Part shown: piece by piece, positions 3,987 to 29,556 of the stretch | Numbering within the stretch: position 1 is the first letter of the stretch | Layout of the letters: every line of letters begins with the position of its first letter | Source: Bacteroidales bacterium | GTDB taxonomy: Bacteria; Bacteroidota; Bacteroidia; Bacteroidales; UBA932 | DNA length: 54,047 nt | Assembly: GCA_017552475.1 (NCBI GenBank) | Contig: JAFZPY010000029.1 | Coordinates: 1 to 54,047, forward strand | Direction: 5' to 3' | Translations under genes and position numbers: made by a program | The notes under the pieces: generated by a model | The model's input: the letters and a program-made list of their open reading frames with translations, nothing else | Database searches by the model: none | What the model was told of the DNA's origin: nothing

Positions 3987-4015
3987 GGAGATTCCGCAAG
4001 GGATCTCCTCTTTTT
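3987..4015 (+). terminator. Intrinsic terminator after tRNA-Leu
   Basis: GGAGATTCC and GGGATCTCC form a 9-bp stem (one G-U pair) around a GCAA tetraloop, followed by TCTTTTT. It lies between the tRNA and manA, only 25 nt before the manA ATG, so readthrough here may decide manA expression. Confidence 0.85.
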
Positions 4016-4040
4016 GTATGCGTTAACAATAGTATATAAT

Positions 4041-8452: not shown

Positions 8453-10675
8453 CTATTTCCAGTTTATGTACTTTGTGTTGACAAGTGTGGTGTGGGGGAT
8501 GCGGTAGTTTTTGACTGTGCGGCCACCGATGGTGGCACGGCTGGCGCCGTCACCTCTGGTGACTGTGAGGACGGAGCCGTCGCCGAGGGTGATTTCGGCT
8601 TTGTCAAAGGAGGGCATTGTAAGTGTGTAGTATGGCTCGCCGGGGCAGTCGGGGTAGAATCCCAGCATGGAGAATACCGCCCATGCGGACATGGTGCCGG
8701 TGTCGTCATTGCCCGGAATGCCGTCGGGGGCAGTGGTGAAGTGTTTGTCAAGGATGTCGCTGACGTAGTGCCAGGTGTATTTTTCATATCCGCGGAAGCG
8801 GCTGAAAAGGTAGGGATAGGCGATGTCAGGTTCGTTGGCAGGGTCGAAGAGGCCTTCGTCGAATACTCGCCTGAGCTTGGTATTGAAGGCTTTTGTTCCG
8901 CCCATCAGGCGGGCATAGGCTTCTACGTCGTGAGGGACATAGAAGGTGTAGTTCCATGCGCTGCCTTCGTGGAAACCGGGCACGGGCTCAAAGTTTTCAC
9001 CCTGCCTGGGGTCGAAGGGAGTGAGGAACCGGCCATCTTTGTCAATAGGACGCAGGGTACCGCTTTCTTTGGAATAGTAATGTCTGTATCCGAGGGAACG
9101 CTGACGGTAGAGTGCGGCGTCTTCTTTGTGGCCGAGGGCTTCTGCCAGAAGGGAGAGGGCGTTGTCGGCGACGTAGTATTCAAGGGCGTGGCTGACGGAA
9201 TTATCTCCGCTGAAATCGGCGGAGAAGTAGCCGAGGGGAATATAACCAAGCTCTTTGTAAGGGTCGTTGTCTGGACGCATGGCGTTATGGGCGCCTGCCG
9301 TCCCGGCGGATTTGATAAATGCTTCGTAGGCCGTCTCAATATCGAAGTCACGGAGTCCCTTTAGCCATGTGTCCGTAATCATCGGGATGATGGGGTCTCC
9401 TTCCATGGTGAAGGTCTCGCGTCCAAAGAGCTCCCATTTTGGCATCCAGCCCCATTCACGGTACATGTCAATAGTACTGCGAACCATGTCGGTCTGACGC
9501 TCCGGGAAAAGGAGGGTCATGAGCTGGTGAACGTTGCGGTAGGTGTCCCAGAGAGAGAACACTGTGTAGCGATGGCGCCCTTTTTCAACGCGACCTGTGC
9601 CACCGGTCTCCATCAGTGGGTATTCGCCGTTCACATCTTCGAGGATGTTGGGATGGAGGAGGGTATGGTAGAGGGCGGTGTAGAAGACTGTCTTGCGCTC
9701 GTCAGACCCGCCGCTGATGCGGATGCGGGAGAGGTCCCGCTCCCACAGGGTCTCAGCTGAAGCCCGGACTTTTTCAAAGTCGAAGCCCTGCTGCTCTTCG
9801 TCAAGGTTTTGCCTGGCGTTTTCCGTGCTTACAAAAGATACTCCGACCTGGACGAGAATCTGCTCTCCCGCCTCAAGGGAGTCGTATGAGAATATATAGC
9901 CGATGTCATCGCCGGCCATCTCACGCGAGTATTCCGTGTAGACTTTGTACTTGCCGGAAAAGCTGTCCCAGGCGGCCTGGGCTTTCAGCTGCCGCTGCTT
10001 TTTCCAGAAGCCGGTGGATGACGGAGCCTTGCTGACCCTGATGACGAAGTACATGGGAAATACTTTCTGGGGGTTGTAACAGAAAGTGCCCATGAGTTTC
10101 ATGCCTTCGATTTCGGTGTCGGAGACTTTGCGGACGCTGGCGCCGGTCTCGTTGGTGAGGCCGTGACCGAGGTTTACGAGGACGTGGGCCTCACCCCCGT
10201 CCGGGTAGGTGTAGCGCTCGATGGATGAACGGAGGGTGGCGGTGGCTTCAGCCACGATGCCTCCGTTCAGAAGAGTGAGCGCGTAGTAGCCGGGGCGGGC
10301 GGTCTCGGCGGTGTACTCACTGCCGTACAGACGGTAGTCTACCTGTAGACTGCCGGTCACAGGCATAGTGAGGACGGAGCCGAGGTCGGGACAGCCGACT
10401 CCGCTGAGATTGACGTGGGAGAATCCGGTGAACCATCTGTTTTCTTCCACGTAGGGCGTGCTCCACCAACGGCTGTCCTTGTCCCAGACATTCAGGTCGG
10501 AACCCATAACGTTGAATGGAGATACGCTCATAAGACCATTCGGCACCACGGCTCCGGGATTGCATGCCCCGAAGTTGCTGGTGCCGATGAAAGGATTGAC
10601 GTAGTCTGTCACTCTCTCCGCGTGTGCGGTGAGACTCATCAGGAGAAGTGCGGCTGCGACAAGTGTTCTATGCAT
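8453..10675 (-). CDS. GH92 alpha-mannosidase, secreted (second paralogue)
   Basis: A second GH92 exo-alpha-mannosidase, 740 residues. The frame is open to 10840, but the ATG at 10675 is chosen because it starts a clean signal peptide ([19 protein letters not shown], cleavage after AHA). That ATG overlaps the GH130 stop as TAATG. There is no lipobox, so it is probably a soluble periplasmic enzyme. GH92 features include YVNPFIGTSNFG near the N-terminus, WDTYRNVHQL, ANEPDIAY at 613-620 and GNDDTGTMSAW at 655-665. Linkage specificity cannot be read directly. Confidence 0.95.
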   Translation of the reverse strand: MHRTLVAAALLLMSLTAHAERVTDYVNPFIGTSNFGACNPGAVVPNGLMSVSPFNVMGSDLNVWDKDSRWWSTPYVEENRWFTGFSHVNLSGVGCPDLGSVLTMPVTGSLQVDYRLYGSEYTAETARPGYYALTLLNGGIVAEATATLRSSIERYTYPDGGEAHVLVNLGHGLTNETGASVRKVSDTEIEGMKLMGTFCYNPQKVFPMYFVIRVSKAPSSTGFWKKQRQLKAQAAWDSFSGKYKVYTEYSREMAGDDIGYIFSYDSLEAGEQILVQVGVSFVSTENARQNLDEEQQGFDFEKVRASAETLWERDLSRIRISGGSDERKTVFYTALYHTLLHPNILEDVNGEYPLMETGGTGRVEKGRHRYTVFSLWDTYRNVHQLMTLLFPERQTDMVRSTIDMYREWGWMPKWELFGRETFTMEGDPIIPMITDTWLKGLRDFDIETAYEAFIKSAGTAGAHNAMRPDNDPYKELGYIPLGYFSADFSGDNSVSHALEYYVADNALSLLAEALGHKEDAALYRQRSLGYRHYYSKESGTLRPIDKDGRFLTPFDPRQGENFEPVPGFHEGSAWNYTFYVPHDVEAYARLMGGTKAFNTKLRRVFDEGLFDPANEPDIAYPYLFSRFRGYEKYTWHYVSDILDKHFTTAPDGIPGNDDTGTMSAWAVFSMLGFYPDCPGEPYYTLTMPSFDKAEITLGDGSVLTVTRGDGASRATIGGRTVKNYRIPHTTLVNTKYINWK

Positions 10676-11673
10676 TAGAGAATGTTGGTCTTTTTGGTGA
10701 ACTCTACGATCTCGGGGATATAGCCGAATGCGAGTCCGGTGACAGTATCGGCGCAGCCGTAATAGACGGCAACGCGTCCGGTCTCGGGGTCGTGGAGGGC
10801 GGCGCAGGGGAATGTGACGTTGGGAACGTCTCCCATGCATTCATAGTCCTTCTGGGGAGAAATAAGATAGGGGCCGCTACGGGCAATCACTTTCCAAGGC
10901 TGGTCAATGTCGAGGAGGGCCGAGCCGAAACTGTAGACATAGCCGTTGCAGGAATGGAGTACGCCGTGGTAGAACAGAAGCCAGCCTTCGGAAGTCTCGA
11001 TGGGAACGGGACCGGCGCCGATCTTCATGCACTGCCATGCGCTCTTCTCGAATGCCGCCGGAGCCATGACATGGCGGTGATGTCCCCAGAACTCGAGATC
11101 GGGAGATTCGGAGTAGAAGATGTCACCGAATGCGGTATGTCCTGTGTCGGAAGGACGTGAAAGCATGGCGAAGCGGCCGTTTATCTTGCGGGGGAACATC
11201 ACGCCGTTGCGGTTGTAGGGGAGGAAGGCGTTCTCCAGCTGGTGGAATGTCTTGAAGTCTTTGGTCCAGGCTACGCCGATGGTGGGGCCGTGATAGCCGT
11301 TGCACCAGGTGACGTAGTATTTGTCTTCAATCCTGGCGACGCGGGGGTCATAGCCGTAGACCCATTCGCCAGTCTCCGGATCCGGACAGTCGAACTTGAT
11401 GGTCTCGGGGTTGATGTCCCAGTGGATGGCGTCTTTGGAGAAACCGACGCGCAGGGTCATGCGCCTGTTGGTGTCATCAACACGGAAAACACCGGCATAA
11501 CCGCCTTCGAAGGGTACTACTGCGCTGTTGAATATGCTGTTGCTGTCGGGAAGCAGGTCGCGGGGAATGACGGGGTTGGCGGAGAAACGCCACATGGGAG
11601 CATTGCTCCCTGAGGGTCTTTCTTCCCAGGGCATGCCGGGGAGAGGAGAGCCGCTTATTTTAAGATTGCTCAT
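10675..11673 (-). CDS. GH130 beta-1,4-mannoside phosphorylase
   Basis: A 332-residue inverting phosphorylase of the five-bladed beta-propeller family GH130. The conserved [20 protein letters not shown] segment holds the likely catalytic Asp109. [16 protein letters not shown]-type and [11 protein letters not shown] motifs also fit. There is no signal peptide, so it acts in the cytoplasm. Resemblance to the subgroup acting on Man-beta-1,4-GlcNAc, together with GH18 and two GH92 enzymes in the same locus, suggests that it converts Man-beta-1,4-GlcNAc plus phosphate to mannose-1-phosphate and GlcNAc. It lies 18 nt after lacI and overlaps the next gene by 1 nt. Mannan-derived substrates are the main alternative. 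Confidence 0.92.
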
Positions 11674-11691: not shown

Positions 11692-12747
11692 TTAAGGATG
11701 TAATTGAACGTAAGGATTGTGAACGTCAGCTGCGAAGATGACAGGCTCGCATTCCGAGGCGAGGAGCTTCTCACCCCTGTCTCTTGCTTCCATGATGTCG
11801 AAGAGCATGTCGGCAGCAGCGTTGCACATTTTCTTCAGAGGCTGCAGGACATAAGGGATGGGCGGATTGAACGCATCGAAGATATTTGAGTAGTCGATAC
11901 CTACAACGTTGACGTCCTGCTGTATCTTCACTCCTTTGTGGATCAGGGCCTTGATCACCGTGACGGCAAGGTCGTTGGAGGACGTGACGAGACCGTCGCA
12001 TCCTTCGGCGATTATGCGGTCGGCGGCGGCTTCGGCGCTGGCCTCGAAGTTATTGAAGTCAATATCCATTATCAGTATGTCTTCCGGTGCGAAACCAGCT
12101 TTAAGCATGTGGTCCCGGTATGACTGCCTGCGGATGTTCATGGTGGAGATGTCCATGTCGTAGATTACAAGGGCAGGTCTGCGGGGCGATTTGGACATAA
12201 GCTGGCCGATGGCGTCGCCGATTGCCTTGTAGTTGTCAAGTACAACGGTGGGGATGTCAAAGGCTGGGTTGTATCTGTCAAATGATACAAAAGGAATGCC
12301 TGTCGAGATCAGGTACTGGATGCTGGCGTCGCAACCGGAACATGGAGTAATGATGATTCCGTCCACATTGCGGTCAATGAATGAACGCAGTACCATGTCA
12401 AATTTGGCGGGCTCTTCCTCCGATGTGCCGAAAAGGATGGTATAACCTTTCTGGTAGGCGATGTTTTCAAGGTGATTCGCGATTTCACCATAGAAAATAT
12501 TGGAAAAGTCAGACAGGATGGCTCCGATTACTTTTGTGCGGCCCTTGCGCAGGGCTCTGGCGGCCTCGTTGGGCCGATAATCCAATTCCTTGGCCACTGC
12601 AAGGATGTGGTCCCTCGTCTGAGGGCTTACGCGGTAACGGCTTTTGCCGTTGGCGTCTGTCCTGTTGTTCATGACGAAAGACACCAGGGATACAGATACT
12701 CCTGCCTGTTTCGCGATATCCTTGATCGTGACTTTCTTCTTTATCAT
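11692..12747 (-). CDS. LacI family transcriptional regulator of the PUL
   Basis: A 351-residue LacI/GalR-type regulator. The N-terminal helix-turn-helix is VTIKDIAKQAGVSVSLVSFV, followed by the hinge (YRPNEAARALRKGRT) and a periplasmic-binding-protein-like sugar sensor domain (IGAILSDFSNIFYGEIANHL onward). The frame opens earlier with TTG at 12774, but that codon overlaps the -7 box, so the ATG at 12747 is used. It is the first gene of the unit with GH130, the GH92 pair and the ROK kinase. Palindromes typical of this family lie at its own start site and at the susC promoter, which points to repression of both units and autoregulation. The effector is unknown; mannose or a Man-GlcNAc derivative is plausible. 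Confidence 0.95.
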   Translation of the reverse strand: MIKKKVTIKDIAKQAGVSVSLVSFVMNNRTDANGKSRYRVSPQTRDHILAVAKELDYRPNEAARALRKGRTKVIGAILSDFSNIFYGEIANHLENIAYQKGYTILFGTSEEEPAKFDMVLRSFIDRNVDGIIITPCSGCDASIQYLISTGIPFVSFDRYNPAFDIPTVVLDNYKAIGDAIGQLMSKSPRRPALVIYDMDISTMNIRRQSYRDHMLKAGFAPEDILIMDIDFNNFEASAEAAADRIIAEGCDGLVTSSNDLAVTVIKALIHKGVKIQQDVNVVGIDYSNIFDAFNPPIPYVLQPLKKMCNAAADMLFDIMEARDRGEKLLASECEPVIFAADVHNPYVQLHP

Positions 12748-12753
12748 AGGGTA

Positions 12754-12768
12754 TAAAATACTTTTAGC
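12754..12768 (-). promoter_or_regulatory. Predicted LacI operator O3 at the lacI start site
   Basis: On the - strand this reads GCTAAAAGTATTTTA, an inverted repeat TAAAA-N3-TTTTA. It shares GCTAAAA and TTTTA with the two sites before susC, with one extra base in the centre. It starts 3 nt downstream of the lacI -7 box, over the expected transcription start, an ideal place for autorepression. Confidence 0.6.
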
Positions 12769-12771
12769 AGC

Positions 12772-12802
12772 CAAAGTTAATAATCTCTTTCTAAAATATC
12801 AA
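12772..12802 (-). promoter_or_regulatory. Promoter of lacI-GH130-GH92-GH92-ROK
   Basis: TAACTTTG on the - strand at 12772-12779 is a perfect -7 box, 24 nt before the lacI ATG. The -33 position at 19-nt spacing reads TTGA, a weak match. A terminator for the preceding unit lies just upstream, so this unit needs its own promoter. Confidence 0.65.
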
Positions 12803-12805
12803 CAT

Positions 12806-12841
12806 AAAACCGGGAGGAATAGCTTTAAGCCTCCCTCCCGG
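12806..12841 (-). terminator. Terminator of the susC-susD-GH18-lipoprotein unit
   Basis: On the - strand CCGGGAGG ... CCTCCCGG forms an 8-bp GC-rich stem followed by TTTTATG. It separates the susC unit from lacI. Confidence 0.75.
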
Positions 12842-12864
12842 ATAAAAAACTAGTGGGATGGCGA

Positions 12865-14553
12865 TTAGTCGAACTTGTTGTGGGCGTCACGCTTCCACTG
12901 AACGTACTCGCTGACGTCGGCGCTGACCATGTCTGACTCGTTGTCGCAGCGTACTGTATTGGTGAAGTCGATGTCTCCGCAGTTGGAGAGCTTGTCATGG
13001 AGGATGTGCCCGTACCCTTCGTTCATGGGCCAGTAAGCTTTCAGGTTGTACCATTGGGCATACTGGATGTAGTAGTTGTCAATGTCTTTCTTTATGATCT
13101 CATTCAGAGTAGCCCACCAGCCGGAGGAGATGTCTGAATTCCAGATGGATACATTCCAGAGACGTCCGTGGAACTCGTTACCTTGTCTGTAGTTTGCTCC
13201 CCAGGAGGAGTTGAACTCGATTGCCTGGAAGTTGAATGTGCCGAGTTCTGCATCGGCTTCATCCACTTTGGTGCCGTCGACGAGAAGCTTGAGTTTTGAG
13301 CCAGTGTAGACGAGGGCGATATTGTACCATGTCTCCACTTCGAGGTTGCCGGTGTAGAGCTGCTTACGGTTGCCGTTGGGACCGACGAACCATTCGAGTT
13401 CAGTGCCTCCCTTCTGGCCGATGCGAAGCATGTTGATGAAGTTTTCATCTTTATCGGCGAAGTCACCGATGCGGGCATGCGCGGTATTCTCTTCTATGTA
13501 GCAGTGGAATGATATTGTCCACTGGGTCATGCTGAGAGGGTTGGCGAATTTAGCCCAGGTGGCCATCCTGTGGTCGCCGATATAGATGGATGAGAACTGG
13601 TTGGCGCCGCCGGCTATCTTCTTCACGTGGAGGGCGATGTAGGTGACACCGTTTGTTCCCATCGTAGCAGGTGACACATCGGTCATCTTGACGGGAATGA
13701 GGTATTCAGCCGCCTCTACGAGGGTCTTGGCATCGTCCTCTGAGATGCTTACGGTCGCGTAAGCTGATGTGGCGTCCTTGGCCATGGTGCACTCGCTGAT
13801 GGTGACAGCCACGCCTTCGGGAAGGGCGGTATACTCTGTCCCGTTTTCGGCATTATAGGCCTCGATCAGGGTGTTGTCTACGGCGAACACGACGGGGAAC
13901 TCCATGAAAGCGCTTTCGCTTCCTTTGACGCTGATGCGTTTTGATATGGAGGGAATCTCCTGCTCATCATCGTAGTTGATCATCGTGAACTCGCTGAAAG
14001 AGCCCTCCACGCTTACGCGGTTGGTGGTGGGGTCGATGACGGTGACCGCAGCCTGGACGTAGGCGGTGTTGGAGTTGGAGCTGATGGAGAGCCCGCCGTC
14101 GACACCGGTGATGCGGAATACAGCGAGGTATGACTCGTCGACGAGTTTCTCGCGGTTTTCATCTGAGATGGTGACGGTGATCGTGTCCCTTGTCTTGCCG
14201 GCAGGGATGGTGACGGTGGAAGGGTACTCAAGCACCCCGGCGGGGAATGCGCTGACATTGCCGCTTATGGCGGTGTCGTCAGTGGAGAGGGTGATGGTGA
14301 CGGCGGAAGACTGGGCCTTGGTGAGTCCGAGTATGATCTCGGCCTCGAGTCCTCCCATATCCCCGATGGGGGTATGGAAGATCTCTGTGGCTGTCTTGTT
14401 GATGTGGGCATCGACTGCGGTACCGCCTACGATGTAGGCATATACGCCGGTCTCGCCGCTGACGGTTGTCTTATAATCGGAGTCCTTGGCGCAGCCTGCT
14501 GCCATGATGGCAGCCGCTCCGCAGAGGATGATGTTTTTAATTATGTTTTTCAT
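12865..14553 (-). CDS. DUF1735 x2 / LamG surface lipoprotein, probable glycan-binding
   Basis: A 562-residue predicted lipoprotein (lipobox MAAGC, Cys21). Residues about 35-170 and 185-315 look like two DUF1735 (BT_3987-type, Ig-like) modules, recognised by phrases such as VDESYLAVFRITGV and LVEAAEYLIPVKMTDV. The C-terminal half (about 325-560) is a concanavalin/LamG-like jelly-roll (WTISFHCYIEEN, WYNIALVYTGSKLKLLVDG, GRLWNVSIWNSDI). No catalytic motif is visible. As the last gene of the susC unit and a partner of the next gene, it probably binds glycan on the cell surface in support of SusCD and the GH18. Specificity is unknown. Confidence 0.8.
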   Translation of the reverse strand: MKNIIKNIILCGAAAIMAAGCAKDSDYKTTVSGETGVYAYIVGGTAVDAHINKTATEIFHTPIGDMGGLEAEIILGLTKAQSSAVTITLSTDDTAISGNVSAFPAGVLEYPSTVTIPAGKTRDTITVTISDENREKLVDESYLAVFRITGVDGGLSISSNSNTAYVQAAVTVIDPTTNRVSVEGSFSEFTMINYDDEQEIPSISKRISVKGSESAFMEFPVVFAVDNTLIEAYNAENGTEYTALPEGVAVTISECTMAKDATSAYATVSISEDDAKTLVEAAEYLIPVKMTDVSPATMGTNGVTYIALHVKKIAGGANQFSSIYIGDHRMATWAKFANPLSMTQWTISFHCYIEENTAHARIGDFADKDENFINMLRIGQKGGTELEWFVGPNGNRKQLYTGNLEVETWYNIALVYTGSKLKLLVDGTKVDEADAELGTFNFQAIEFNSSWGANYRQGNEFHGRLWNVSIWNSDISSGWWATLNEIIKKDIDNYYIQYAQWYNLKAYWPMNEGYGHILHDKLSNCGDIDFTNTVRCDNESDMVSADVSEYVQWKRDAHNKFD

Positions 14554-14568
14554 GGCTTGTCCGTTTTA

Positions 14569-15789
14569 TTAGTTGGAGCACTTGTTGATGTCGTCAAGCA
14601 CCCAGCGGCGGGAAGCGACTTCACTCTTGTCGAAGTCGACTAGCACGCCGTTTTCACGGGAGTCGCGCTTGGTCTTGGACCAGTCCATGTCGTAGCCGTT
14701 GCCGGTAGCGTCATGGAAGATGTATCCTTCGCCCTCGTTGAATTTCCAGTAAGCCCTGAGGCCTTCGGAACTGGTGTCGACACCGCAGAATCCGAGCTTC
14801 ATCTCGTTGACGGAGATTGCGCGGTCCCATACGCGTACTTCAGCGATACGGCCGTTGAAGAGCTGGCTTGCGGGATATCCGCCGCCCCATGACATGCCGA
14901 GTTCGAAGCGCTGGAATGTGGTGGTGCCGTCGCCGGTACCGACCTTTTCCTCTGGAACACCGTTGACATACATCTTCATGCTGGCACCGTCATAGACGAG
15001 GGAGAGCATGTACCAGTTGTTTTCCTCGAAGGTGGTGTTGGACACGATGTTGCCGGCGGGGGAAACGAGCTGGAGGGTGCGGTGCGCGTAGCCATTCTCA
15101 TTGAAACGGAGCATGTTGGCTTTCTCTTCATTGGCACCTTCCCATGCGCAGAGACGGCAGATGTCACCGGCCTTGTTCTTGAGGTTGGTGGGATATACTT
15201 TGATTTCGTATGTGTACTGGGACAGGGGGATTGCCTGCTCATCGGTGAAGATGAAGTTGGAGGAGAGGTTGGAGTCTGAGATGTCCAGCGTGTAAGGCCT
15301 TATGACACGGGAAATACGCAGGTAGATAGTGCGTGAGGCCTCGAGTACATCCATACCTTCGGATGAGGTGATGGTGACGGGAATCATGTAGAGGCGTCCG
15401 TCAACGAAGAAGTCCGAGCTGAGGAGGTTTACGTTGTTGACGCTGGAGGAAGCCTCGCCTTTGCGGATGACTACGACATCTTCATCGAGGGATACTGCTT
15501 CGGCGGGAACCGCGAAGTAGTTGGACTTGTGAGATGCGTTATAGGCTTCTACGAGGCTGGGGTCTACTTTGACAGTGGCTTTCACGTCCTGGGAGACCTT
15601 GCCCGTAGCTGATACGGAGAGAGGGTAGGAGCCGGTCTCTCCTTCGACGGCGAAGCTCACTACGGGAGAGGAAGCTGTTCCTGAAATAAGGAGGACTTCC
15701 CTGCCTGCTTCAAACTTGTCGCCCTCTGTGCAGGCCGCCATAGTAAGGGCGGCTGCGGCCATGATGGCTATGTTGATATACTTTTTCAT
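14569..15789 (-). CDS. DUF1735 / LamG surface lipoprotein, probable glycan-binding
   Basis: A 406-residue lipoprotein (lipobox MAACT, Cys20) with one DUF1735-like module (about 35-165) and a C-terminal LamG/concanavalin-like domain (about 180-385, with WYMLSLVYDGASMKMYVNG and GRIAEVRVWDRAI). It is a shorter relative of the neighbouring gene; both end with the pattern AYWxxNEGxGxIxHD. It starts 12 nt after the GH18 gene. The probable role is surface glycan binding. A structural role in holding the GH18 at the SusCD complex is also possible. Confidence 0.8.
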   Translation of the reverse strand: MKKYINIAIMAAAALTMAACTEGDKFEAGREVLLISGTASSPVVSFAVEGETGSYPLSVSATGKVSQDVKATVKVDPSLVEAYNASHKSNYFAVPAEAVSLDEDVVVIRKGEASSSVNNVNLLSSDFFVDGRLYMIPVTITSSEGMDVLEASRTIYLRISRVIRPYTLDISDSNLSSNFIFTDEQAIPLSQYTYEIKVYPTNLKNKAGDICRLCAWEGANEEKANMLRFNENGYAHRTLQLVSPAGNIVSNTTFEENNWYMLSLVYDGASMKMYVNGVPEEKVGTGDGTTTFQRFELGMSWGGGYPASQLFNGRIAEVRVWDRAISVNEMKLGFCGVDTSSEGLRAYWKFNEGEGYIFHDATGNGYDMDWSKTKRDSRENGVLVDFDKSEVASRRWVLDDINKCSN

Positions 15790-15801
15790 ACTTGCCGTGT
15801 G

Positions 15802-16863
15802 TTATTTGATTGAAGGGTTGGCAATCTGGATGCAGCGGCGGAGGTTGTAGTAGGGACCGGCCGTGTAGAAGTAGTCGGAGTCCATGTAGTAACCGCCGAA
15901 GCCGTGTGCGTTGCCGTCAAGGCAGAAACGAGCGTATGCTTCAAGTGAGGCCATGTCGCTCCCGGTACCGGAAGCATCATAGGTCTTGAGGACCTCGCCG
16001 TTGTAGCCGTAGTAGGGGGTGTAGCCCTGGGTCATGCCCGCGTTGCGGCAGTCGTTCCACTGCTCGCAGATGACGTATTTCTCGGGAGCGAGCCAGCCGG
16101 GTCTGCTGAGAAGGGTGCTGTAGCGGTTGCCGATCTGGGGGCTGTAGGCCTGTCGCACGACGAAGTTGACGTATTCGTCAATGTCTCCCGAAGGAGCAGA
16201 ACCGAAGTAATCGACTACGAGGTACTTGGAGGGGTCGGAACCTTTGGGGCCGATCTTCTCGCCGAGGATGAGTACGAGCTTGGTCAGAAGACTTGCGGAC
16301 CATCCTTCGAAGTCGATGTCGACACCGTCGATGTCATTGTCATAGATGGTGTCAAGGATGTTCTGGGCGTAGATCTGCATGGCCTCGTCGTTGCCGCTGT
16401 AGAGAGAAGCCTCTGTGCCGTCGGCGAGAGTCATTGTCCAGTCGTGGGAAGCATCGCCGTGCATGAGGAACTTTGTGCCCTTCTGTGAACGGCAGAACTG
16501 CATGTCTTCGTAGGCGACGGGGGAGTAGTTGTATTCGTCGGCAGGGTTGCCGGAAGGTACGCCCATCCAGAGGTTGACGAAGTCAAGGCTGTCGGGAAGA
16601 CCGATGAAGCGCTCTGACATCGATGTGGGGATCTTGTAGAGTGAGGAAGCTCCTTCAAGAGTGGAGTAGGCCGCATAGTATATATATGTAATGGCGTGGT
16701 CCGACTCCTTGAAATCACGGAGATTCTGGTAGTACTGTGCATCGAAGCGGCCGGCGATGTACTCAGGATCTGAGTTCTGGAGTACGAGGGCCTCTTCCTC
16801 GCCGCAGCTTGCGAGGGCTGCGGTGGCAACAGCTACAGAAAGTATGTATTTGAAATTTTTCAT
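15802..16863 (-). CDS. GH18 endo-beta-N-acetylglucosaminidase lipoprotein
   Basis: Cuts the GlcNAc-beta-1,4-GlcNAc core of N-glycans, releasing the glycan from protein. The 353-residue protein is a lipoprotein (lipobox LASC, Cys20). The GH18 signature DxxDxDxE is intact at Asp179, Asp182, Asp184 and Glu186 (DGVDIDFE); Glu186 is the proton donor, and Asp184 orients the substrate acetamido group. It follows susD by 12 nt, the usual place for a surface endo-acting enzyme. It lacks the N-terminal DUF1735 module that some relatives carry; here such modules are in separate neighbouring genes. Chitinase activity is a less likely alternative given the mannosidase context. Confidence 0.92.
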   Translation of the reverse strand: MKNFKYILSVAVATAALASCGEEEALVLQNSDPEYIAGRFDAQYYQNLRDFKESDHAITYIYYAAYSTLEGASSLYKIPTSMSERFIGLPDSLDFVNLWMGVPSGNPADEYNYSPVAYEDMQFCRSQKGTKFLMHGDASHDWTMTLADGTEASLYSGNDEAMQIYAQNILDTIYDNDIDGVDIDFEGWSASLLTKLVLILGEKIGPKGSDPSKYLVVDYFGSAPSGDIDEYVNFVVRQAYSPQIGNRYSTLLSRPGWLAPEKYVICEQWNDCRNAGMTQGYTPYYGYNGEVLKTYDASGTGSDMASLEAYARFCLDGNAHGFGGYYMDSDYFYTAGPYYNLRRCIQIANPSIK

Positions 16864-16875
16864 GTTCGTTACTTA

Positions 16876-18468
16876 TTAACGGGGTTTCTGGTCCCACCAG
16901 AGTTTGGTGCCGGAGTTGTCGAGACCGCCGAGGGCGGCGACGCCGGCTGCTACGCCTGAGGGGTTGGTTGAATATTCGCTGATGGGGAACGGTACGCGGC
17001 GGATCTGGAGGTCATCGTCAACGACGCCGTTGCTCATGTTGGAAACGACGCGGAGGAGCTTGGGATAGCCTGTGCGGCGGTATTCAGCCCATGCCTCGCA
17101 ACCGTTGGGGAACATGGCAATCCACTTCTGGGTCATGAGGCGCTCGAGAGAAGTCTCGAAGGAGTCGTTGTCATTCCATGCAATAGTGATGGCGGAAGGA
17201 GCGGATGTGCCGTTGTTCTGGCCGGAGTTGTCAACGAATGCGGCAGGCTTGGCCGTGCTGTTGGCAACATAACTGTCAGCTCCGGTGGCGCCCCATTCGG
17301 AGAATGAGGTGCGGATGCCTTCCTCATAGAGGTCTTTGGCGGTACCGCCCATGCTCCATCCACGGAGAGCACCTTCGGCGCGAAGGAAGTAAACCTCGGC
17401 GGCATTGATCCAGGTGATGTTGTAGATGGTGGCGTTGGGGGCTGATACCTTGCCTGCCTTGTTTTTATATACATCCCATACTGTGGTGGTGAGACCGTTG
17501 CGGACGCCGTGGAACTTGCCGTCTGAAGCAGCCTTGGCAATCTTGAAGGTACGGGGGTCGTCGTAGCCGTTGAGGTAGCAGTCCATGTCGGCGTTCATCT
17601 GGGTGTCGGCGTCGTTGAAGTTGACATTGATCTCATAGAGAGGGTGGTGTTCAACTCCGGATACGACAGCGTTGTCGGCATTGTCGGTGATTACGCCATA
17701 GGCGCTTGCAAGTGACTTCTCTGCCTCTGCCTGGGCGAGTGCTTCATCGGCATAGACGCAGCGCATGGCGAGACGCAGGCGGAGGGAGTTGGCGAAGCGG
17801 ATCCATTTGGCGACGTTGCCTCCATAGACGATGTCGAAGTCAGGCATGATAGCGGCTCCGGGGTTGGCGCTCTCGAATGCTTCAAGGGTGGAGATAGCTT
17901 CATCGAGCTCGGCGAGGAATGAGCGGTAGATGCTCTCCTGTGAGTCGTAGTCAGGGGTGAGGGTTTTGCCTACCTGGCTGTAAGGCATGGGGCCCTGGTA
18001 GTCGGTTACCTGATGCATTGTGGCAATCTTGAGGACGTTGCCGAGTGCCACGATGTGGGAGAGGCCGGCCTCTTTGGCTGTCTCGTCGAGGAGAAGCCAT
18101 GCGTTCATGCCATAGGTGAACTTGTTGACGTACATGGAGCGTGTCCAGCCGTCTTTATCGTAGAAGTTGCCAGTCGAGGGTACGGCACCGAGTGTCGGTG
18201 CCATGTAACCGCAGTAGGTCTCGGCGGCGAGGTTGTACATGATCTGGTAGTCGGAGTCGAGGTACTTGCCGTCGCGGTAGATGATCACCGAGCGCTCAAT
18301 CTGCTGGAAGAAAGCTCCGAAAAGGTTGTCGTCGGTAGCCATCTGCTCTTCGGTGGCCTGGTGCTTATTTGTGTTGTAGTCCTCGAAGTTTTTGGTACAG
18401 CCGGCTGCGAATGCGGCGAGTGAGAGGGCCGCGATTCCTTTGATTATTGTATTCATATTGATATTCAT
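16876..18468 (-). CDS. SusD/RagB-like outer-membrane glycan-binding lipoprotein
   Basis: A 530-residue lipoprotein (lipobox FAAGC, Cys24) of the SusD family, all-helical with TPR-like repeats. It forms the lid on the SusC transporter and binds glycan at the cell surface. Family features include NFEDYNTNKHQ after the lipobox, YNITWINAAEVYFLRAEGAL (the conserved helix) and a C-terminus ending TKLWWDQKP. An internal ATG at codon 5 could also start the gene. It starts 15 nt after the susC stop codon, the standard SusC-SusD order. Confidence 0.95.
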   Translation of the reverse strand: MNINMNTIIKGIAALSLAAFAAGCTKNFEDYNTNKHQATEEQMATDDNLFGAFFQQIERSVIIYRDGKYLDSDYQIMYNLAAETYCGYMAPTLGAVPSTGNFYDKDGWTRSMYVNKFTYGMNAWLLLDETAKEAGLSHIVALGNVLKIATMHQVTDYQGPMPYSQVGKTLTPDYDSQESIYRSFLAELDEAISTLEAFESANPGAAIMPDFDIVYGGNVAKWIRFANSLRLRLAMRCVYADEALAQAEAEKSLASAYGVITDNADNAVVSGVEHHPLYEINVNFNDADTQMNADMDCYLNGYDDPRTFKIAKAASDGKFHGVRNGLTTTVWDVYKNKAGKVSAPNATIYNITWINAAEVYFLRAEGALRGWSMGGTAKDLYEEGIRTSFSEWGATGADSYVANSTAKPAAFVDNSGQNNGTSAPSAITIAWNDNDSFETSLERLMTQKWIAMFPNGCEAWAEYRRTGYPKLLRVVSNMSNGVVDDDLQIRRVPFPISEYSTNPSGVAAGVAALGGLDNSGTKLWWDQKPR

Positions 18469-18483
18469 GATCTTGCAGCGTTA

Positions 18484-21400
18484 TTAAAGGTTGACCTTGA
18501 CGGAGAAGCCGTAGCTGCGTGTGCTCGGCTGCATGAAGTAGTCGATGCCCTGGTTGTAGGTGCCGGTGGAGGCGGTCATCTCAGGATCGAAGGGAGCCTT
18601 CCTGTAGAGCATGAGGAGGTTGTGTCCTACGAGGGAGACGTTGAGTCCTTTGCACCAGTTGCACCATTTCTGCACGGGGATGTCGTATCCGAGTGAGAGT
18701 TCGCTGAGGCGCACGTTGGTGGCGTCGTAGACATACATTGACATCACGCCGTCGCCTACGCCGAGGGTCTGGTAGTAGGCCTGGATGTTGGGGCTCTGCA
18801 TGCCGTTGTACTCGACATAGCCGCGGTCGCGGGCGTCAGCGGTAGCTTTTGAGATACCGTAGTAGTCGAGGATGGACTGGGTCTTGGAGACAACCACGCC
18901 GCCAAGCCTTGCGGAGAACATGAAACCGAGGCTGAGTCCCTTGTAGCTCAGGTTGTTGCCCCAGCTGAGAAGGTGCTTGGGAGCGGTGTCGCCTGCGTAC
19001 ATGAGACCTTCGTCGGAGTAGTCGGCGATGACGCCTCCGGTGGAGTTCTGCTTGAAGTAACCGCGCTCGTCTGTGGCGAGGGTGGTGACATAGATGTCGC
19101 TCATGGAGCCGCCCTCGTAGAGGATCTGCTTGACGCCGCCCATACCGCCTACGTCGAGGCGTTTGATGCTGAGGGTCTCGCCGGTCTGCTCTACGTACCA
19201 GTTGTCAAGGAGTTTGACAATCTTGTTTTTGTTGTGTGACCAGGTAGCGTATGTGTCCCAGTGGAAGTCACCGAAGTCGTCACCGTAGCGTACTGACATC
19301 TCGATACCCTTGTTGTCCACCTGTCCGGCGTTGACGATCACTGAGGACCAGCGTGAACCGGCGGAGAGGGATGAGTTGAAGAACTGGTTGTAGGTGCTTG
19401 ACTTGTAGAGGGTGGCGTCGATCTGGAGCTTGCTCTTGAAGAAGTGGATGTTGGTGCCGAGTTCATAGGACTTGGTGAGCTCAGCCTTGAGGTCGGTATT
19501 GTTCATACGGGTGCTGGTGCTGGGCTTGCCGTCCACTACTTCGTAGGTGGGGTTGGTCAGGAACGGATCGGGATCGTTACCTACCTCTGAATATGAGGCG
19601 CGGACCTTCCAGTAAGGGAAGATGTCGCTCTTGATGGCAGGAATGAGTTCGGTCACGATGCCGGAGAGTCCGACGGTAGGATAGAAGATGGGGTTCTCCT
19701 CGGTAAAGGCGAGGGTGGATGACCAGTCGTAGCGGCCGGTGAGGTCGAGGTAAACCATGCTCTTGTAGCCGATCTGGGCGTTGGCGAACAGCGCCTGTTT
19801 CTGCCTGTGATAGCCTTCCTGAATAAGCTGGGTGGCAGAGTGGGTGCGGTTGATGTTGCCGAAAGTGAAGAGGTTGGCTACCTGGGCGAGGTTGCCGCCG
19901 GTGAAGTCGGTGCTGTGGGTGAGATCCTCGATATTTGCGCCGACGGTCGCGGTGACGTTGACGGCGTTGTCGAGGAAGTATTTATTGACATTTGCAATAA
20001 ATTCAGCATACTTCTGGCTGGTCACGTGTGCGTCTTTGCTGTAGTATCCGTATTTGGAGGCAAAGAGCTGGAGTGTGCCGGCGTTGAATTTCTTCTCGTG
20101 AGACTCGTTGTCGCGGTCCATCTTGGCACGGACTGAGAGATTGAGCCATTTGAGAGGCTTGTAGGTGAGCTGGGCGCTTGCCATGACGCGGTGTTTGTTG
20201 TTGTTGTAGCGCTGGTTCTCCGTAATCCACCAGGGGTTCTGCATGGAGAAGTCGTTGGCATAGGGCCAGTATTGGGTCTTGAGGTTGCGCTCTGCGTCGT
20301 AGCGCTCATAGATCTTGATTCTCTCGATGTCGTCGCCTGCGGGGAAGAGGTAGATGGGCACGATAGGGTTCATGTACTGACCCTGTGCCACCATGTTCTG
20401 TTCCTTGATATTGGCGTAAGTCATGCTGAGGTCGAGGGTCAACTTGTCATCGAGGAAGTTGGTGGTGTTACGGATGTTGAAGTTGTACTTGTCAACATTG
20501 TTGTTGCGGATGATACCGCGGGCATTGGTGGCGGCAAGGGAGGCGTAGATCTGGTTGCGCTCGTTGCCGGAGGAGAAGCTTATAGCATTGACCTCATTGA
20601 CACCGGTCTGGAAGAAGTCACGGGGAGAGTAGCTTGAGGGAGTGGCGAGCTTTTCGCCCCAGCTCTGGTAGGAACCTTCCTCGGTGGCGCCATAGGTGTT
20701 CTGGAATGAGGGCATGATGTAGGCGCGTGAGAACTCGGTAGTATTGGAGTAGCTCAGGGATACCTGGTCCTTCGCTCCTTTTTTGGTAGTGATGATCACT
20801 ACGCCGTTGGCTGCTGATGAGCCGTATAGAGCCGCAGCGGAGGGACCGCTGAGTACGGAGATGCTCTCGATATCGTTGGGGTTGATGGCCGCGAGTCCGT
20901 CACCGGTCTGTCCTGCGCCTGCGAATACGCCTTCAGGCTGCTCGCCTGAGAGGGACGGCATGGGAATACCGTCAATCACGTAGAGGGCGTTGTTATTGCC
21001 GGAGAGGGACTTGGTACCGCGCATAACGACACGGGAAGCACCGCCCACACCGGTGGAGGACTGGTTGATGGATACACCGGCAACTTTACCAGCGAGGGAG
21101 TTGACGAAGGAGCCGGTAGGGGCTACCATGTCGAGTTTTGCCTCCTGAACGTTGTAGGAGAGGGATTTCTCTGATTTGGAGATACCCATGGCGGTGACAA
21201 CCACAGCATCGAGTGCTGTGTTTTCGTTTCTGAGGACGACGTTGATGACGCTGCGTCCGTCGATGTTCTCCACTACGTCGGTCATGCCGATATAGGAGAA
21301 CCTGAGGGCTGTGGCGTTTTCAGGGACGCTGATGGTGTAATGACCATCGAGGTCGGTGATGACGCCGATCGATGAGGCTCCTTCGACAAGGATGCCTGCG

Positions 21401-21555
21401 TTGATCAGTGGCAGTCCCTCTGTGTCGGTCACGGTTCCGGAAACCTGGCGGTTCTGGGCGTGGCCGGTGATGCCTGCAAGGAAAAGTCCTGCGATAAGGC
21501 AGAGACTTGACAGGCACTTTGTAATCATACGATTAACAGAGTGTTGGTTACCCAT
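18484..21555 (-). CDS. SusC/RagA-like TonB-dependent glycan transporter
   Basis: A 1023-residue outer-membrane beta-barrel importer powered by TonB. A signal peptide (cleavage near GHAQ, about residue 34) precedes a CarboxypepD_reg-like domain (VSGTVTDTEGLPLINAGILV). The TonB box region (LDAVVVTAMG) and plug domain (VVMRGTKSLSGNNNALYVIDG) follow. The C-terminus ends in Phe-x-Val-x-Val-x-Leu as expected for a barrel. A second ATG at codon 10 (21528) is an alternative start. It is the first gene of the susC-susD-GH18-lipoprotein unit and has its own promoter with two predicted LacI operators. Likely cargo is GH18-released N-glycan. Confidence 0.96.
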   Translation of the reverse strand: MGNQHSVNRMITKCLSSLCLIAGLFLAGITGHAQNRQVSGTVTDTEGLPLINAGILVEGASSIGVITDLDGHYTISVPENATALRFSYIGMTDVVENIDGRSVINVVLRNENTALDAVVVTAMGISKSEKSLSYNVQEAKLDMVAPTGSFVNSLAGKVAGVSINQSSTGVGGASRVVMRGTKSLSGNNNALYVIDGIPMPSLSGEQPEGVFAGAGQTGDGLAAINPNDIESISVLSGPSAAALYGSSAANGVVIITTKKGAKDQVSLSYSNTTEFSRAYIMPSFQNTYGATEEGSYQSWGEKLATPSSYSPRDFFQTGVNEVNAISFSSGNERNQIYASLAATNARGIIRNNNVDKYNFNIRNTTNFLDDKLTLDLSMTYANIKEQNMVAQGQYMNPIVPIYLFPAGDDIERIKIYERYDAERNLKTQYWPYANDFSMQNPWWITENQRYNNNKHRVMASAQLTYKPLKWLNLSVRAKMDRDNESHEKKFNAGTLQLFASKYGYYSKDAHVTSQKYAEFIANVNKYFLDNAVNVTATVGANIEDLTHSTDFTGGNLAQVANLFTFGNINRTHSATQLIQEGYHRQKQALFANAQIGYKSMVYLDLTGRYDWSSTLAFTEENPIFYPTVGLSGIVTELIPAIKSDIFPYWKVRASYSEVGNDPDPFLTNPTYEVVDGKPSTSTRMNNTDLKAELTKSYELGTNIHFFKSKLQIDATLYKSSTYNQFFNSSLSAGSRWSSVIVNAGQVDNKGIEMSVRYGDDFGDFHWDTYATWSHNKNKIVKLLDNWYVEQTGETLSIKRLDVGGMGGVKQILYEGGSMSDIYVTTLATDERGYFKQNSTGGVIADYSDEGLMYAGDTAPKHLLSWGNNLSYKGLSLGFMFSARLGGVVVSKTQSILDYYGISKATADARDRGYVEYNGMQSPNIQAYYQTLGVGDGVMSMYVYDATNVRLSELSLGYDIPVQKWCNWCKGLNVSLVGHNLLMLYRKAPFDPEMTASTGTYNQGIDYFMQPSTRSYGFSVKVNL

Positions 21556-21626
21556 GATGTGTGTAAAGTTTTGATTATAATAATGTTGGTTGGTAGTGCG
21601 TGTTGGTTTTCCAATAATAACGCCTG

Positions 21627-21657
21627 CAAATTTAATATTAATCCCGAGAAAATAAAA
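21627..21657 (-). promoter_or_regulatory. Promoter of the susC unit
   Basis: On the - strand TTTT (21654-21657), a 19-nt spacer and TAAATTTG (21627-21634) fit the Bacteroidota promoter with one change in -33. The -33 bases lie inside predicted operator O1, so a bound repressor would block RNA polymerase. The leader is about 65 nt. Confidence 0.75.
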
Positions 21658-21666
21658 CGTTTTAGC
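21653..21666 (-). promoter_or_regulatory. Predicted LacI operator O1 overlapping the susC -33 box
   Basis: GCTAAAACGTTTTA on the - strand contains the perfect 12-bp palindrome TAAAACGTTTTA with a central CG, the classic form of LacI-family operators. It covers the -33 element. Confidence 0.75.
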
Positions 21667-21676
21667 CGAAAAATGT

Positions 21677-21690
21677 TAAAACTTTTTAGC
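21677..21690 (-). promoter_or_regulatory. Predicted LacI operator O2 upstream of susC
   Basis: GCTAAAAAGTTTTA on the - strand differs from O1 at one base and lies 24 bp further upstream, giving a tandem pair. Confidence 0.65.
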
Positions 21691-21711: not shown

Positions 21712-22443
21712 CTAACGGCCTATGGCCTTGATTGTGAGTTGCTCTTTTGTGGGTTTGCCGTCAAGGTACGGCTGTACTTTGAAGATAAGGGTGTCGGACG
21801 GAGCCAGACCTTCGGGCATGGTGAAGCGGAAGTGAAGCGAATCGCTCTCGTGCCCGGAGTCCGGATTGCGGAAAGACAGATTTGCCGCATAGGGGCCAAT
21901 GGCTTCGAAGGTCAGTGTTGACTTCTGCTCCGTGGTGTAACGGAGGAAAATGTCGCCGCGTTCGCCGGCTTTGAGGAGGCCAAAGTGCAGGGCGCTGTGC
22001 GTCATGTGAAGGCCGTCACCGTAGTCGTAAGGGTAGTTTTCTTCGACAGGGTGCTCGCAGGGAATGACTTCGCCCTTGAAAACAATGCTTTTCATCATGC
22101 CTCCTGCGTAGAAGAGCTGGATTTCTTCCATGAATACACCGCCGCGGTAGGCAGGGTTGTAGACGACCTGAACTTTCTGCATGGCTCCGGGTGCTACTGC
22201 ACGTCTGTCAAGATGCACTTCGGTGCAGAGACAGCGCGTGTAGAAGTCGACGGGGTAGAGGGTGTCGGCGGAGTTGTTGGGAATCAGAAGCATGATCTGA
22301 CGCGGACCGTCCTGTTCGGGGATGAGTCCAAAATCGGCATCAATTCCTTCGTCGGCAATTATCTCGGCCGGAGCTTTGGCGCCACCCTGCCGGCATGCGG
22401 CAGCTGCGATGACAAGCGCAGCCAGTATCAGATATTTTCTCAT
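21712..22443 (-). CDS. DUF1573 family lipoprotein
   Basis: A 243-residue lipoprotein (lipobox AAAAC, Cys17) with a DUF1573-like Ig-fold region: FGLIPEQDGPRQIMLLIPNNSADTL, then a Cys-x-Cys (CLCTEV) and VVYNPAYRGGVF, typical of this family. A second beta-rich module follows (about 140-243). Its function is unknown; such proteins are common outer-envelope proteins in Bacteroidota. It is the last gene of the GH3-GH2-GH29 unit and its start overlaps the GH29 stop by 4 nt, so it is translated with glycosidases and may help their display or glycan binding (inference). Confidence 0.75.
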   Translation of the reverse strand: MRKYLILAALVIAAAACRQGGAKAPAEIIADEGIDADFGLIPEQDGPRQIMLLIPNNSADTLYPVDFYTRCLCTEVHLDRRAVAPGAMQKVQVVYNPAYRGGVFMEEIQLFYAGGMMKSIVFKGEVIPCEHPVEENYPYDYGDGLHMTHSALHFGLLKAGERGDIFLRYTTEQKSTLTFEAIGPYAANLSFRNPDSGHESDSLHFRFTMPEGLAPSDTLIFKVQPYLDGKPTKEQLTIKAIGR

Positions 22444-24188
22444 AGGATCGCGGAGAAGTCAGATACGGCGTAGGTGTCGCCGGATACCCTAAGGGGGGTG
22501 AGCCTGATGTGGCGGGCACGGACAGGGACGTCAAATGTGACATCCTGTTCTACGGGATTGTTGACTATGTTATCGAACATCTTTTCAGCATGGACGGTGG
22601 TCCAGGCCGTGCCGTCAAGGCTTGACTCGAGGCGATATGTGATGATGACGCCCTCCTGTCCGCCGGGGGCAGGGGTATATCTGAAGCCTGCGATGTCAGC
22701 GATGTTTTCAAGAGAGAAGACAAGAGGCTCTGCGGCTGATTTGGTATCGAATCGTGCAACCGCCTGGTTTTCGTCTCTATATATATTGTCTTGATATAGC
22801 TGGAGGGAACTGATGGCCGGGCAGGCGAATGCGTCGTCGAAGGTGATCCTGACGGCGCTGGCGGTCACGGTAGGGGTGAGGACGATGCGTTTGTAGCCGA
22901 TGGTGGTCTCGTGGGCGATGGTTTGCCAGGAGCCATCAGTGGCGACCTCGACGGTAAAGGATTTGACTCTCTGGCCGAGAGGAATGTATTCCTGGAGAAC
23001 GACGCGGTTGAAGGTGCGGGGTTCGGGGAAGGTCAGCGTGATGGATGGAGTAGAAGCACCGTCGTGAGGAGCCCAGTAGGAACAGTAGTCTCCGTCAAGC
23101 ATATTGGAGGCGGCGAACTTGCGGCCGCGGGTATCGGAAGCAGAGATGGAGGCGCCCTGCGCCAGGTCTGCGCTGAAGATACTGTCAAGGGCCGCGCGAT
23201 ACGCCATCAGGCGTACGGAATCCACCTCGTGGATATGCCCCCTGGTATCAGCGGGGACATTCAGGAGCAGAAGTGAATTACGGCCTACGCTCTCATAATA
23301 TATTTGCAGCAACTTGTTGACAGACTTGACTTTGTCATTCTCGCTATCGCGGTAGAACCAGCCCGGGCGGATGGAAACGTCAGTCTCGGCGGGCACCCAG
23401 GCCTCGCCGTGAACATTGCCGGAATTGAGGGTGTCCTGCGGCGGAGCGCCTGCGCCCGGAGTGAAGCCGGTCACATTCAGTGCGCTCCAGTTGGTGCGGC
23501 CTGCTCTGCCGGACTCGTTGCCTACCCAGCGGCAGCCTGGGCCTATGTCACTGAACATTATGGCATTGGGATGATGCTTGCGCACCTCGCCATGGAAAAG
23601 TGGCCAGTCATAAACCTGCTTCTTGCCGGTCGGACCCTCTCCGCAGGCACCGTCAAACCACTGCTCGAACACGTCCCCATAGCTGGTGTGTGCATGCTCC
23701 AGCGTCTTTCTGTACACCTCATTGTACTCAGGCGTGCCATAATGCGGGTCATTGCGATCCCACGGGGAAATGTAAACGCCGAACTTCAACCCATACTCGC
23801 GGCACGCATCGGAAAGCTCCCTGAGCACGTCGCCCTGCCCGTTCATCCAGCTGCTCTGCGCCACTGTATGGCTGCTCACAGGATTGGGCCACAGGCAGAA
23901 CCCGTCATGATGCTTGGCGGTGATAATGATGCCCTTGAAACCGGCGGCGCGGGCTGTAGCCGCCCACTGGCGGCAGTCAAGGTCAGTGGGGTAAAACGTG
24001 TCCTCGATCTCCTTGCCCGTGCCCCATTCGGCACCGGTAAACGTGTTCGGGCCAAAATGCACGAACATATTTGTCTCCATCATCTGCCACTGTACCTGCG
24101 CGTCAGTGGGAAGTGCCCCATAGGGCTTGGGAGCGCTGCTGCAACCTGCGAGCAAAACGCCCATACCTATATATATAAGTCGTCTCAT
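22440..24188 (-). CDS. GH29 alpha-L-fucosidase with C-terminal F5/8-type domain
   Basis: A retaining fucosidase that removes alpha-L-fucose from host-type glycans. The ATG at 24188 gives 582 residues with a lipoprotein signal (lipobox LLAGC, Cys15) and overlaps the GH2 stop as ATGA; the longer open frame to 24236 is not needed. GH29 features are NMFVHFGPNTF, TAKHHDGFCLW and QWFDG, with Asp179 the likely nucleophile. A galactose-binding/F5-8 type C domain lies at about 340-480, and a second beta module closes the protein. This layout resembles the alpha-1,3/1,4-specific branch of GH29, which often needs neighbouring galactose; specificity remains inferred. Confidence 0.92.
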   Translation of the reverse strand: MRRLIYIGMGVLLAGCSSAPKPYGALPTDAQVQWQMMETNMFVHFGPNTFTGAEWGTGKEIEDTFYPTDLDCRQWAATARAAGFKGIIITAKHHDGFCLWPNPVSSHTVAQSSWMNGQGDVLRELSDACREYGLKFGVYISPWDRNDPHYGTPEYNEVYRKTLEHAHTSYGDVFEQWFDGACGEGPTGKKQVYDWPLFHGEVRKHHPNAIMFSDIGPGCRWVGNESGRAGRTNWSALNVTGFTPGAGAPPQDTLNSGNVHGEAWVPAETDVSIRPGWFYRDSENDKVKSVNKLLQIYYESVGRNSLLLLNVPADTRGHIHEVDSVRLMAYRAALDSIFSADLAQGASISASDTRGRKFAASNMLDGDYCSYWAPHDGASTPSITLTFPEPRTFNRVVLQEYIPLGQRVKSFTVEVATDGSWQTIAHETTIGYKRIVLTPTVTASAVRITFDDAFACPAISSLQLYQDNIYRDENQAVARFDTKSAAEPLVFSLENIADIAGFRYTPAPGGQEGVIITYRLESSLDGTAWTTVHAEKMFDNIVNNPVEQDVTFDVPVRARHIRLTPLRVSGDTYAVSDFSAIL

Positions 24189-29525: not shown

Positions 29526-29556
29526 CAAATATAACGATTTAATAAGCAATCTGAAA
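29526..29556 (-). promoter_or_regulatory. Promoter of the GH3-GH2-GH29-DUF1573 unit
   Basis: TTTC (29553-29556), 19 nt, TATATTTG (29526-29533) on the - strand, 44 nt upstream of the GH3 start. No copy of the GCTAAAA-TTTTA operator is present here, so control may differ from the susC and lacI units. Confidence 0.75.

Follow-up and report, generated by a model that had tools for sequence, protein, structure and literature searches.

Which regulator controls the glycan locus on contig JAFZPY010000029.1 of a gut Bacteroidales bacterium (assembly GCA_017552475.1), and from which sites would it act? The stretch of 54,047 nucleotides analysed here, called the window, holds susC and susD as a pair, together with linked glycoside hydrolase genes and the regulator gene lacI, and thus has the make-up of a susC/D-type polysaccharide utilisation locus (PUL). 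A sequence-only reading of the window had claimed that three matching palindromes, O1 and O2 before susC and O3 before lacI, place import and a mannosidase unit under direct repression by this one LacI protein. We found the three sequences on the - strand exactly as given there. Comparison with relatives leads us to a probability of about 0.82 that this is an N-glycan utilisation locus under its own LacI-family repressor, which would repress at O1, O2 and O3, be released by a sugar and govern a wider regulon. The predicted direct repression of susC is well supported by this comparison.

Results

Palindromes in the susC promoter

O1 (GCTAAAACGTTTTATT, 21651..21666, - strand) covers the -33 position of the promoter of susC, which encodes a TonB-dependent glycan importer (18484..21555, - strand). 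O2 (GCTAAAAAGTTTTAAC, 21675..21690, - strand) lies upstream of it at a centre-to-centre spacing of 24 bp, as had been described. The -7 element of the promoter, TAAATTTG (21627..21634, - strand), matches TANNTTTG, which we take to be the -7 box consensus and used to place the promoters of susC and lacI. Measured to the 3' end of TAAATTTG, the centre of O1 is 32 bp and that of O2 56 bp upstream. The value for O1, found also in four relatives (G383, G281, G227 and G371), agrees with the claim that it sits over the -33 box. Both sites are even 16-bp palindromes (7-2-7) akin to GCTAAAACGTTTTAGC, and even 16-bp sites were found in relatives as well. LacI-family operators are described in the cited part of PMC4052901 as palindromes of 16-22 bp, usually even and with a central CG, whose spacing is usually constant within an orthologous group. 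The central CG emphasised by the sequence-only reading is present in O1; O2 has another centre and O3 an odd spacer.

All counts for the window's own genome refer to its assembly of 2.0 Mb, which is 79.85% complete. The exact pattern GCTAAAWNNWTTTA occurs there twice, at O1 and O2, and its reversed control not at all, which is the genomic rarity that had been proposed as a test. Within the window, GCTAAAAMGTTTTA with up to two mismatches gives four matches, all of them O1 and O2 (palindromes counted on both strands), where 0.18 are expected. No further full copy was found in the window, as had been seen by eye. The 16-mer of O1 recurs identically before susC of one relative (G383), and that of O2 before lacI of another (G236). 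Two tighter patterns gave little excess in the own genome, with 9 sites versus 7 in the control and 24 versus 16. Four other matches were taken as chance: those before a ribosomal protein S21-like gene (C22), before an outer-membrane-like gene (C63) and at the end of a PhoH-like gene (C130), all three assigned by eye, and one between two convergent genes (C41).

Regulator and site occur together

Of 400 genomes of the same genus, 33 (the own genome counted) gave a match to the GH18 protein of the locus at E <= 1e-30, and the other 32 were compared. Seventeen of them carry a LacI orthologue at 43-52% identity (LacI+; that of G028 is interrupted by one stop codon), paralogues below 40% identity in G115, G385 and G426 being left out of this number. 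The remaining 15 (LacI-) comprise five without a LacI match at 1e-20, nine with relatives of at most 38% identity and G349 with a short one. Sites were scored with a matrix trained on relatives only, namely the susC sites of 11 genomes and eight lacI sites. Among the sites of the window it ranks O2 first (23.5), O1 second (20.7) and O3 third (12.1).

In the 320 bp that precede the orthologous susC, we found a site in 17/17 LacI+ genomes (scores of at least 18.5) and in 0/15 LacI- genomes (all below 9), a split with p = 1.8e-9 by simple counting, which ignores kinship. The O1/O2 consensus alone separates the two groups without overlap, the best match having 0-3 mismatches in LacI+ and 4-6 in LacI- genomes. 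Six susC sites outside the training set (G364, G172, G186, G310, G436 and G268) score at least 19.0; lacI sites of five of these six genomes were in the matrix, and a matrix restricted to the susC sites of those 11 genomes gives the six 17.8-21.8, next to 21.1 for O1, 21.0 for O2 and 8.9 for O3. Scans of whole loci yielded 32 sites of at least 15 over 280 kb in LacI+ genomes; the 254 kb scanned in LacI- genomes had none. Over whole genomes, GCTAAAWNNWTTTA matched 47 times in the 17 LacI+ genomes (reversed control 21) and 4 times in the 15 LacI- genomes (control 9). The susC starts, checked across the relatives, show no long N-terminal extension.

A quick SusC tree likewise shows site and regulator changing together. 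Because the two agreed in every row, they were counted as one label, and this label changes four independent times, on well-supported branches. One of these changes separates the sister pair of G310, with regulator and site, and G349, with a truncated LacI and no site. The truncated gene (G349:C9, about 9250-9790; L382) is in the apparent lacI place and 43% identical over residues 4-155; its product ends early, the usual hinge is missing, and its neighbours resemble, by eye, those near lacI in some relatives. No site of at least 12 was found in the 4.5 kb around it. Short LacI matches of this type also occur in G005, G037 and G038.

In G426, a genome without this LacI, an NrtR/AraR-type regulator (L148:4496-5245) adjoins the orthologous locus, and G115 has a gene of the same length there. 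Adjacent double susC-susD pairs are present in G411 (L151), with two GH18 genes, and in G006 (L152), with one recognised; neither genome has a LacI orthologue or the operator.

Promoter geometry and operator spacing

For each operator we took the distance from its centre to the -7 box TANNTTTG, measured at the 3' end of the box. Most susC operators are centred either over the -33 box, at 31-36 bp upstream, or over the start site, at 11-13 bp downstream; G350, G408 and G364 have operators at both positions. Exceptions are G278, which has no exact -7 match, additional copies in G172, O2 in the window and, in G186, the outer site at 46. Seven of the eight lacI operators are centred 33-35 bp upstream, and that of G281 at 47. 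Operators over the -33 box or the start site would fit a block of polymerase.

Cooperativity of tandem operators at susC, which had also been predicted, is not borne out. The 24-bp spacing is not conserved among the relatives, whose susC promoters carry one, two or three copies, and the spacings (22, 24, 44, 47, 57 and 58 bp) share no helical phase, so that cooperativity is not indicated. The locus of G172 has three tandem operators at 22-bp spacing, which extend from the start site of susC into its leader (L162:859-918).

The LacI protein

The lacI gene (11692..12747, - strand, with its ATG start codon at 12747) encodes a LacI-family repressor of 351 aa. It matches PF00356 with 53 bits (cut-off 27) as well as PF00532, PF13377 and PF13407, an N-terminal LacI helix-turn-helix being followed by a periplasmic-binding-protein-like sugar domain as in the LacI/GalR architecture. 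The closest solved sequence is a CcpA (E 7.5e-33), and the predicted structure is a confident model (pLDDT 84). In an alignment with 16 orthologues, from which G028 was omitted because of the stop codon in its match, the recognition region GVS-(I/V)-(A/S)-LVSFVMNNR is nearly invariant. A PF00356 search of the own genome, at the completeness given above, found no second LacI-family gene.

O3 and the mannosidase unit

O3 (GCTAAAAGTATTTTATA, 12752..12768, - strand) is operator-like and has one extra central base, giving 7-3-7 with the same arms in place of the 7-2-7 found elsewhere. It lies where the start site of lacI is predicted, as had been claimed, and begins 3 bp past the -7 element TAACTTTG (12772..12779, - strand), just as the start-site susC operators of G350 and G408 do past their -7 boxes. 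As a plain 16-mer it has the score of 12.1 given above; with one central base skipped this rises to 19.4, a value reached by 17-mers once in 1 Mb of simulated sequence. The rest of the window has no 17-mer as good, nor do 134 kb of other, partly overlapping, stretches of the own genome. A clear upstream site (at least 12 of 14 consensus positions) is present in 8/17 lacI orthologues; the conservation that had been set as a test was found before the orthologous susC of all 17 genomes with a full regulator. In five relatives (G350, G408, G383, G285 and G281) lacI directly follows a binding-protein gene, and only G281 has a site there.

We regard O3 as a probable operator, and repression of the mannosidase unit through it as likely. 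Four genes follow lacI on the same strand with small gaps or none. They encode a GH130 phosphorylase (10675..11673), starting 18 bp past lacI, two GH92 alpha-mannosidases (b, 8453..10840, whose open reading frame start overlaps GH130, and a, 6271..8451) and a ROK-family protein, probably a sugar kinase (5150..6259), as the final gene. Since these genes are contiguous with lacI, one promoter at O3 would drive lacI and the mannosidase unit together. The GH130 is 79-86% identical across the mapped relatives and in the window falls below every NCBIfam cut-off.

A probable wider regulon

The view that one locus-encoded LacI controls import and the mannosidase unit is supported in part, by the sole LacI-family gene found and by matching operators at the susC promoter and at the lacI start site; it needs adjustment in that O3 is the weaker site and the regulon appears to be wider. 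Immediately upstream of susC is an enzyme block of GH3, GH2, GH29 and DUF1573 (21712..29481, - strand). We found an operator at or near the GH3 start codon in 16/17 LacI+ genomes (14.8-25.6; G278 is borderline at 14.8, and G227 was missed in that scan, its site being seen in another) versus 0/8 LacI- genomes (best 5.3), 7 of the 15 having given no GH3 start (G006 was not fetched). In the window, a weak, possible and doubtful operator, ATTAAATCGTTATATT (29528..29543, - strand, score 10.0), overlaps the -7 element of GH3. In six loci (L284, L294, L303, L305, L307 and L313) the operator forms part of the opening codons of the gene for the GH3 lipoprotein (ATG CTA AAA ...), where the same bases would serve DNA recognition and signal-peptide coding.

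An operator-like sequence, GTAAAAACGTTTTAAA (G000:C109:2740-2755, L360, score 16.9), touches the start codon of a xylulokinase-like gene, xylB, in the own genome, about 12 bp past a near -7 box. Five relatives have a site at this position, and G028 has one 20 bp further up. Sites of at least 15 just before xylB occur in 7/16 LacI+ genomes (own genome counted) versus 0/12 LacI- genomes (p = 0.0097 by counting). The genes xylB (below the NCBIfam cut-off), xylA and xylE are consecutive on contig C109 and unlinked to the locus. A site inside xylA (C109:4306, 17.1) is in coding sequence and probably due to chance. The regulon probably includes this xylBAE operon in the own genome and the GH3 operon in most relatives, and the link to xylBAE would suggest a plant-type N-glycan as the substrate.

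Further genes of the locus

The susC operon, as read from gene order, would comprise susC, susD (16876..18468, - strand), a gene for a GH18 endo-beta-N-acetylglucosaminidase-like protein (15802..16863, - strand) and genes for two BT_3987-like, laminin-G proteins, probably surface glycan-binding (12865-14553 and 14569-15789, together 12865..15789, - strand). A phosphomannose-isomerase-like gene (4014-5021) lies on the opposite (+) strand. The GH18, the two GH92 and the GH130 are all present at the locus, assigned by family. For the GH3, the closest solved structures are beta-xylosidases, and no NCBIfam cut-off is reached. The set of GH3, GH29, GH2, GH92 and GH18 resembles the plant N-glycan set in the cited part of PMC9522356, and from the enzyme families and this likeness we infer that the substrate is an N-glycan of the plant type.

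Relatives outside the genus

We scanned named genomes with the LacI protein, and the best 80 loci comprise 26 close and 54 more distant ones. The close loci, at 42-52% identity, are mostly from unnamed Bacteroidales assemblies, many of them from ruminants; GH92 is near LacI in 19 and GH130 in 13. The 54 others are mostly from Flavobacterium, and 34 have a GH92 relative nearby; in many Flavobacterium loci a relative of GH92 (a), mostly about 50% identical, is beside LacI. Neither xylA nor xylB was found near LacI in any of the 54. In 37 of the best 80 loci, of the Flavobacterium type, susC starts within 2.5 kb after lacI, and a site of at least 15 lies between the two in 36; 34 of the sites reach p <= 0.01 against shuffled sequence. 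Since these species are related, the 36/37 is not independent evidence. The scan shows that the predicted arrangement of LacI, operator and susC extends beyond one genus. LacI control, which had been called unusual, may be so for Bacteroides; the order of lacI, operator and susC is frequent in the Flavobacterium loci examined. A locus of an Alistipes sp. (L235) has a LacI relative at 36% identity with six high-scoring operator-like sites around it.

Discussion

Our data suggest the following mechanism. Without inducer, a LacI dimer on O1 (and O2) would block RNA polymerase at the -33 region of susC, and LacI on O3 would block the start site of the lacI-GH130-GH92-GH92-ROK unit. By binding before its own gene, LacI would also repress itself. 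LacI would be released by a sugar present in the cytoplasm once imported glycan is broken down. This inducer is probably mannose itself or a small sugar that contains it, such as mannosyl-GlcNAc, and the association with GH92 in the wider family favours a mannose-related inducer. The unlinked xylBAE would probably belong to the regulon too, as would the GH3 operon of most relatives; such a regulon is in keeping with a plant-type N-glycan carrying xylose and fucose.

Several observations weigh against this proposal. The looser pattern GCTAAAANGTTTTA at two mismatches has 30 matches in the own genome versus 40 in the control, so that only near-exact copies are informative, and sites of like score lie at unrelated genes (C130 with 19.4, C121 with 19.1). 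About 20% of the genome is unseen and may hold a further LacI gene or sites; the genomes of the relatives are incomplete too, and the 47 matches in LacI+ genomes are only partly traced to genes. A sign test on the four joint changes gives p = 0.125, and the strength of the case is therefore the exact match of regulator and site and not this p-value. G349, scored as LacI-, keeps a short relative with a DNA-binding domain. O3 has its odd spacer and its low score under the susC-only matrix; nine of the 17 lacI orthologues have no clear own site (G436 a weaker one with 11 positions, the other eight none or one at chance level), among them G350, G408, G383 and G285, in which lacI has the same place and no strong site before it. 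The GH3 of the window has only its weak site, and the LacI- genomes in the GH3 comparison number eight. Finally, binding, the dimer and the operon structure are predictions, and repression rather than activation, like the inducer, is taken over from what is usual in the LacI family.

An activating or dual role, in which LacI aids polymerase at susC from O2 or O1 and represses only itself at O3, would make use of O2, whose position ahead of the -33 region could suit an activator. The majority of susC operators, however, cover the -33 box or lie just past the start site, where a bound protein would obstruct polymerase; three genomes have them at both places, and we consider such a role improbable. 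Even less credible is a passenger role of lacI, with another factor reading the palindromes: the site follows a full-length LacI orthologue in 32/32 genomes and through four separate changes, and the own genome yielded no other LacI-family gene. It is also unlikely, though far less so, that only O1 and O2 matter, with O3 an AT-rich palindrome that arose by chance and the mannosidase unit transcribed without regulation or by read-through. The odd spacer and the four of five relatives with the same gene order and no strong site before lacI would agree with this. The rarity of such one-base-longer variants in simulated sequence, the position of O3 past TAACTTTG, shared with the start-site operators of G350 and G408, and the clear autoregulatory sites of eight lacI orthologues speak for repression at O3.

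Because xylBAE carries an operator in the own genome and several relatives, the inducer could instead be xylose or a xylose-containing sugar. The absence of xylB sites from all 12 LacI- genomes, the likeness of GH3 to solved beta-xylosidases and the xylan loci of Gramella flava, for which a legend has lacI with susC, susD, xylA, xylB and xylE (PMC5306329), point this way. We hold a xylose signal to be doubtful, given that 9/16 LacI+ genomes have no xylB site of at least 15, that among the best 80 loci GH92 accompanies LacI in close (19/26) and distant (34/54) loci alike, with GH130 in 13/26, and that 0/54 distant loci contain xylA or xylB. A mannose-containing inducer thus remains our preferred reading.

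Repression of a TonB-dependent importer by a LacI protein is a known kind of mechanism. SuxR of Xanthomonas campestris, a LacI-family protein, controls the TonB-dependent importer gene suxA (PMC1790865); its gene also lies beside that of a sugar importer, and its loss derepresses importer and regulator genes. SuxR belongs to another phylum, however, and acts on sucrose, the cited part of that report mentions neither SusD nor a multi-enzyme locus, and the likeness is drawn without comparing operators. In Bacteroides thetaiotaomicron, comparative genomics predicted regulons of the LacI-family proteins KdgR, UxaR, UxmR and UxuR (PMC3878776). These are likewise local regulators in Bacteroidales, but in the part cited they serve uronate pathways, mannose being assigned to ManR of the GntR family and xylose to XylR of the NrtR family. 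The high-mannose loci PUL72 and PUL16 of this species share the susC/D type, an endoglycosidase and surface glycan-binding proteins with our locus, whereas the cited part of PMC11180146 puts them under extracytoplasmic function (ECF) sigma/anti-sigma pairs and does not name LacI. The plant N-glycan enzymes of B. massiliensis (GH3 beta-1,2-xylosidase, GH2 galactosidase, GH29 fucosidases and GH92, with GH130 named in related loci) match our set in family; as described in the cited part of PMC9522356, they are spread over several loci, one with an AraC-type regulator, and a PNGase is used. The Gramella flava susC/susD loci with a LacI-family gene concern xylan and xylose, and their legend shows no operators (PMC5306329). 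A search of the open PMC literature found no report of a LacI-controlled N-glycan locus, which does not prove its absence from print.

As a tentative overall picture, rated somewhat below even odds, one cytoplasmic LacI may replace membrane-spanning sensors and couple the import and digestion of plant N-glycan to the unlinked xylBAE. It may belong to an old, Bacteroidota-wide module of lacI, operator, susCD and GH92, with operators mainly at two promoter positions, lost together with the regulator and in relatives placed in the first codons of GH3. Such a LacI switch would be simpler than those known for loci of this type in Bacteroides. As LacI would sense a cytoplasmic product, the importer genes must be leaky ahead of the signal. 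If LacI control is true, regulation would be easily predicted from sequence, and the motif, its two promoter positions and the pattern of joint loss provide a matrix ready for use on cultured Flavobacterium and on uncultured Bacteroidales of the gut.

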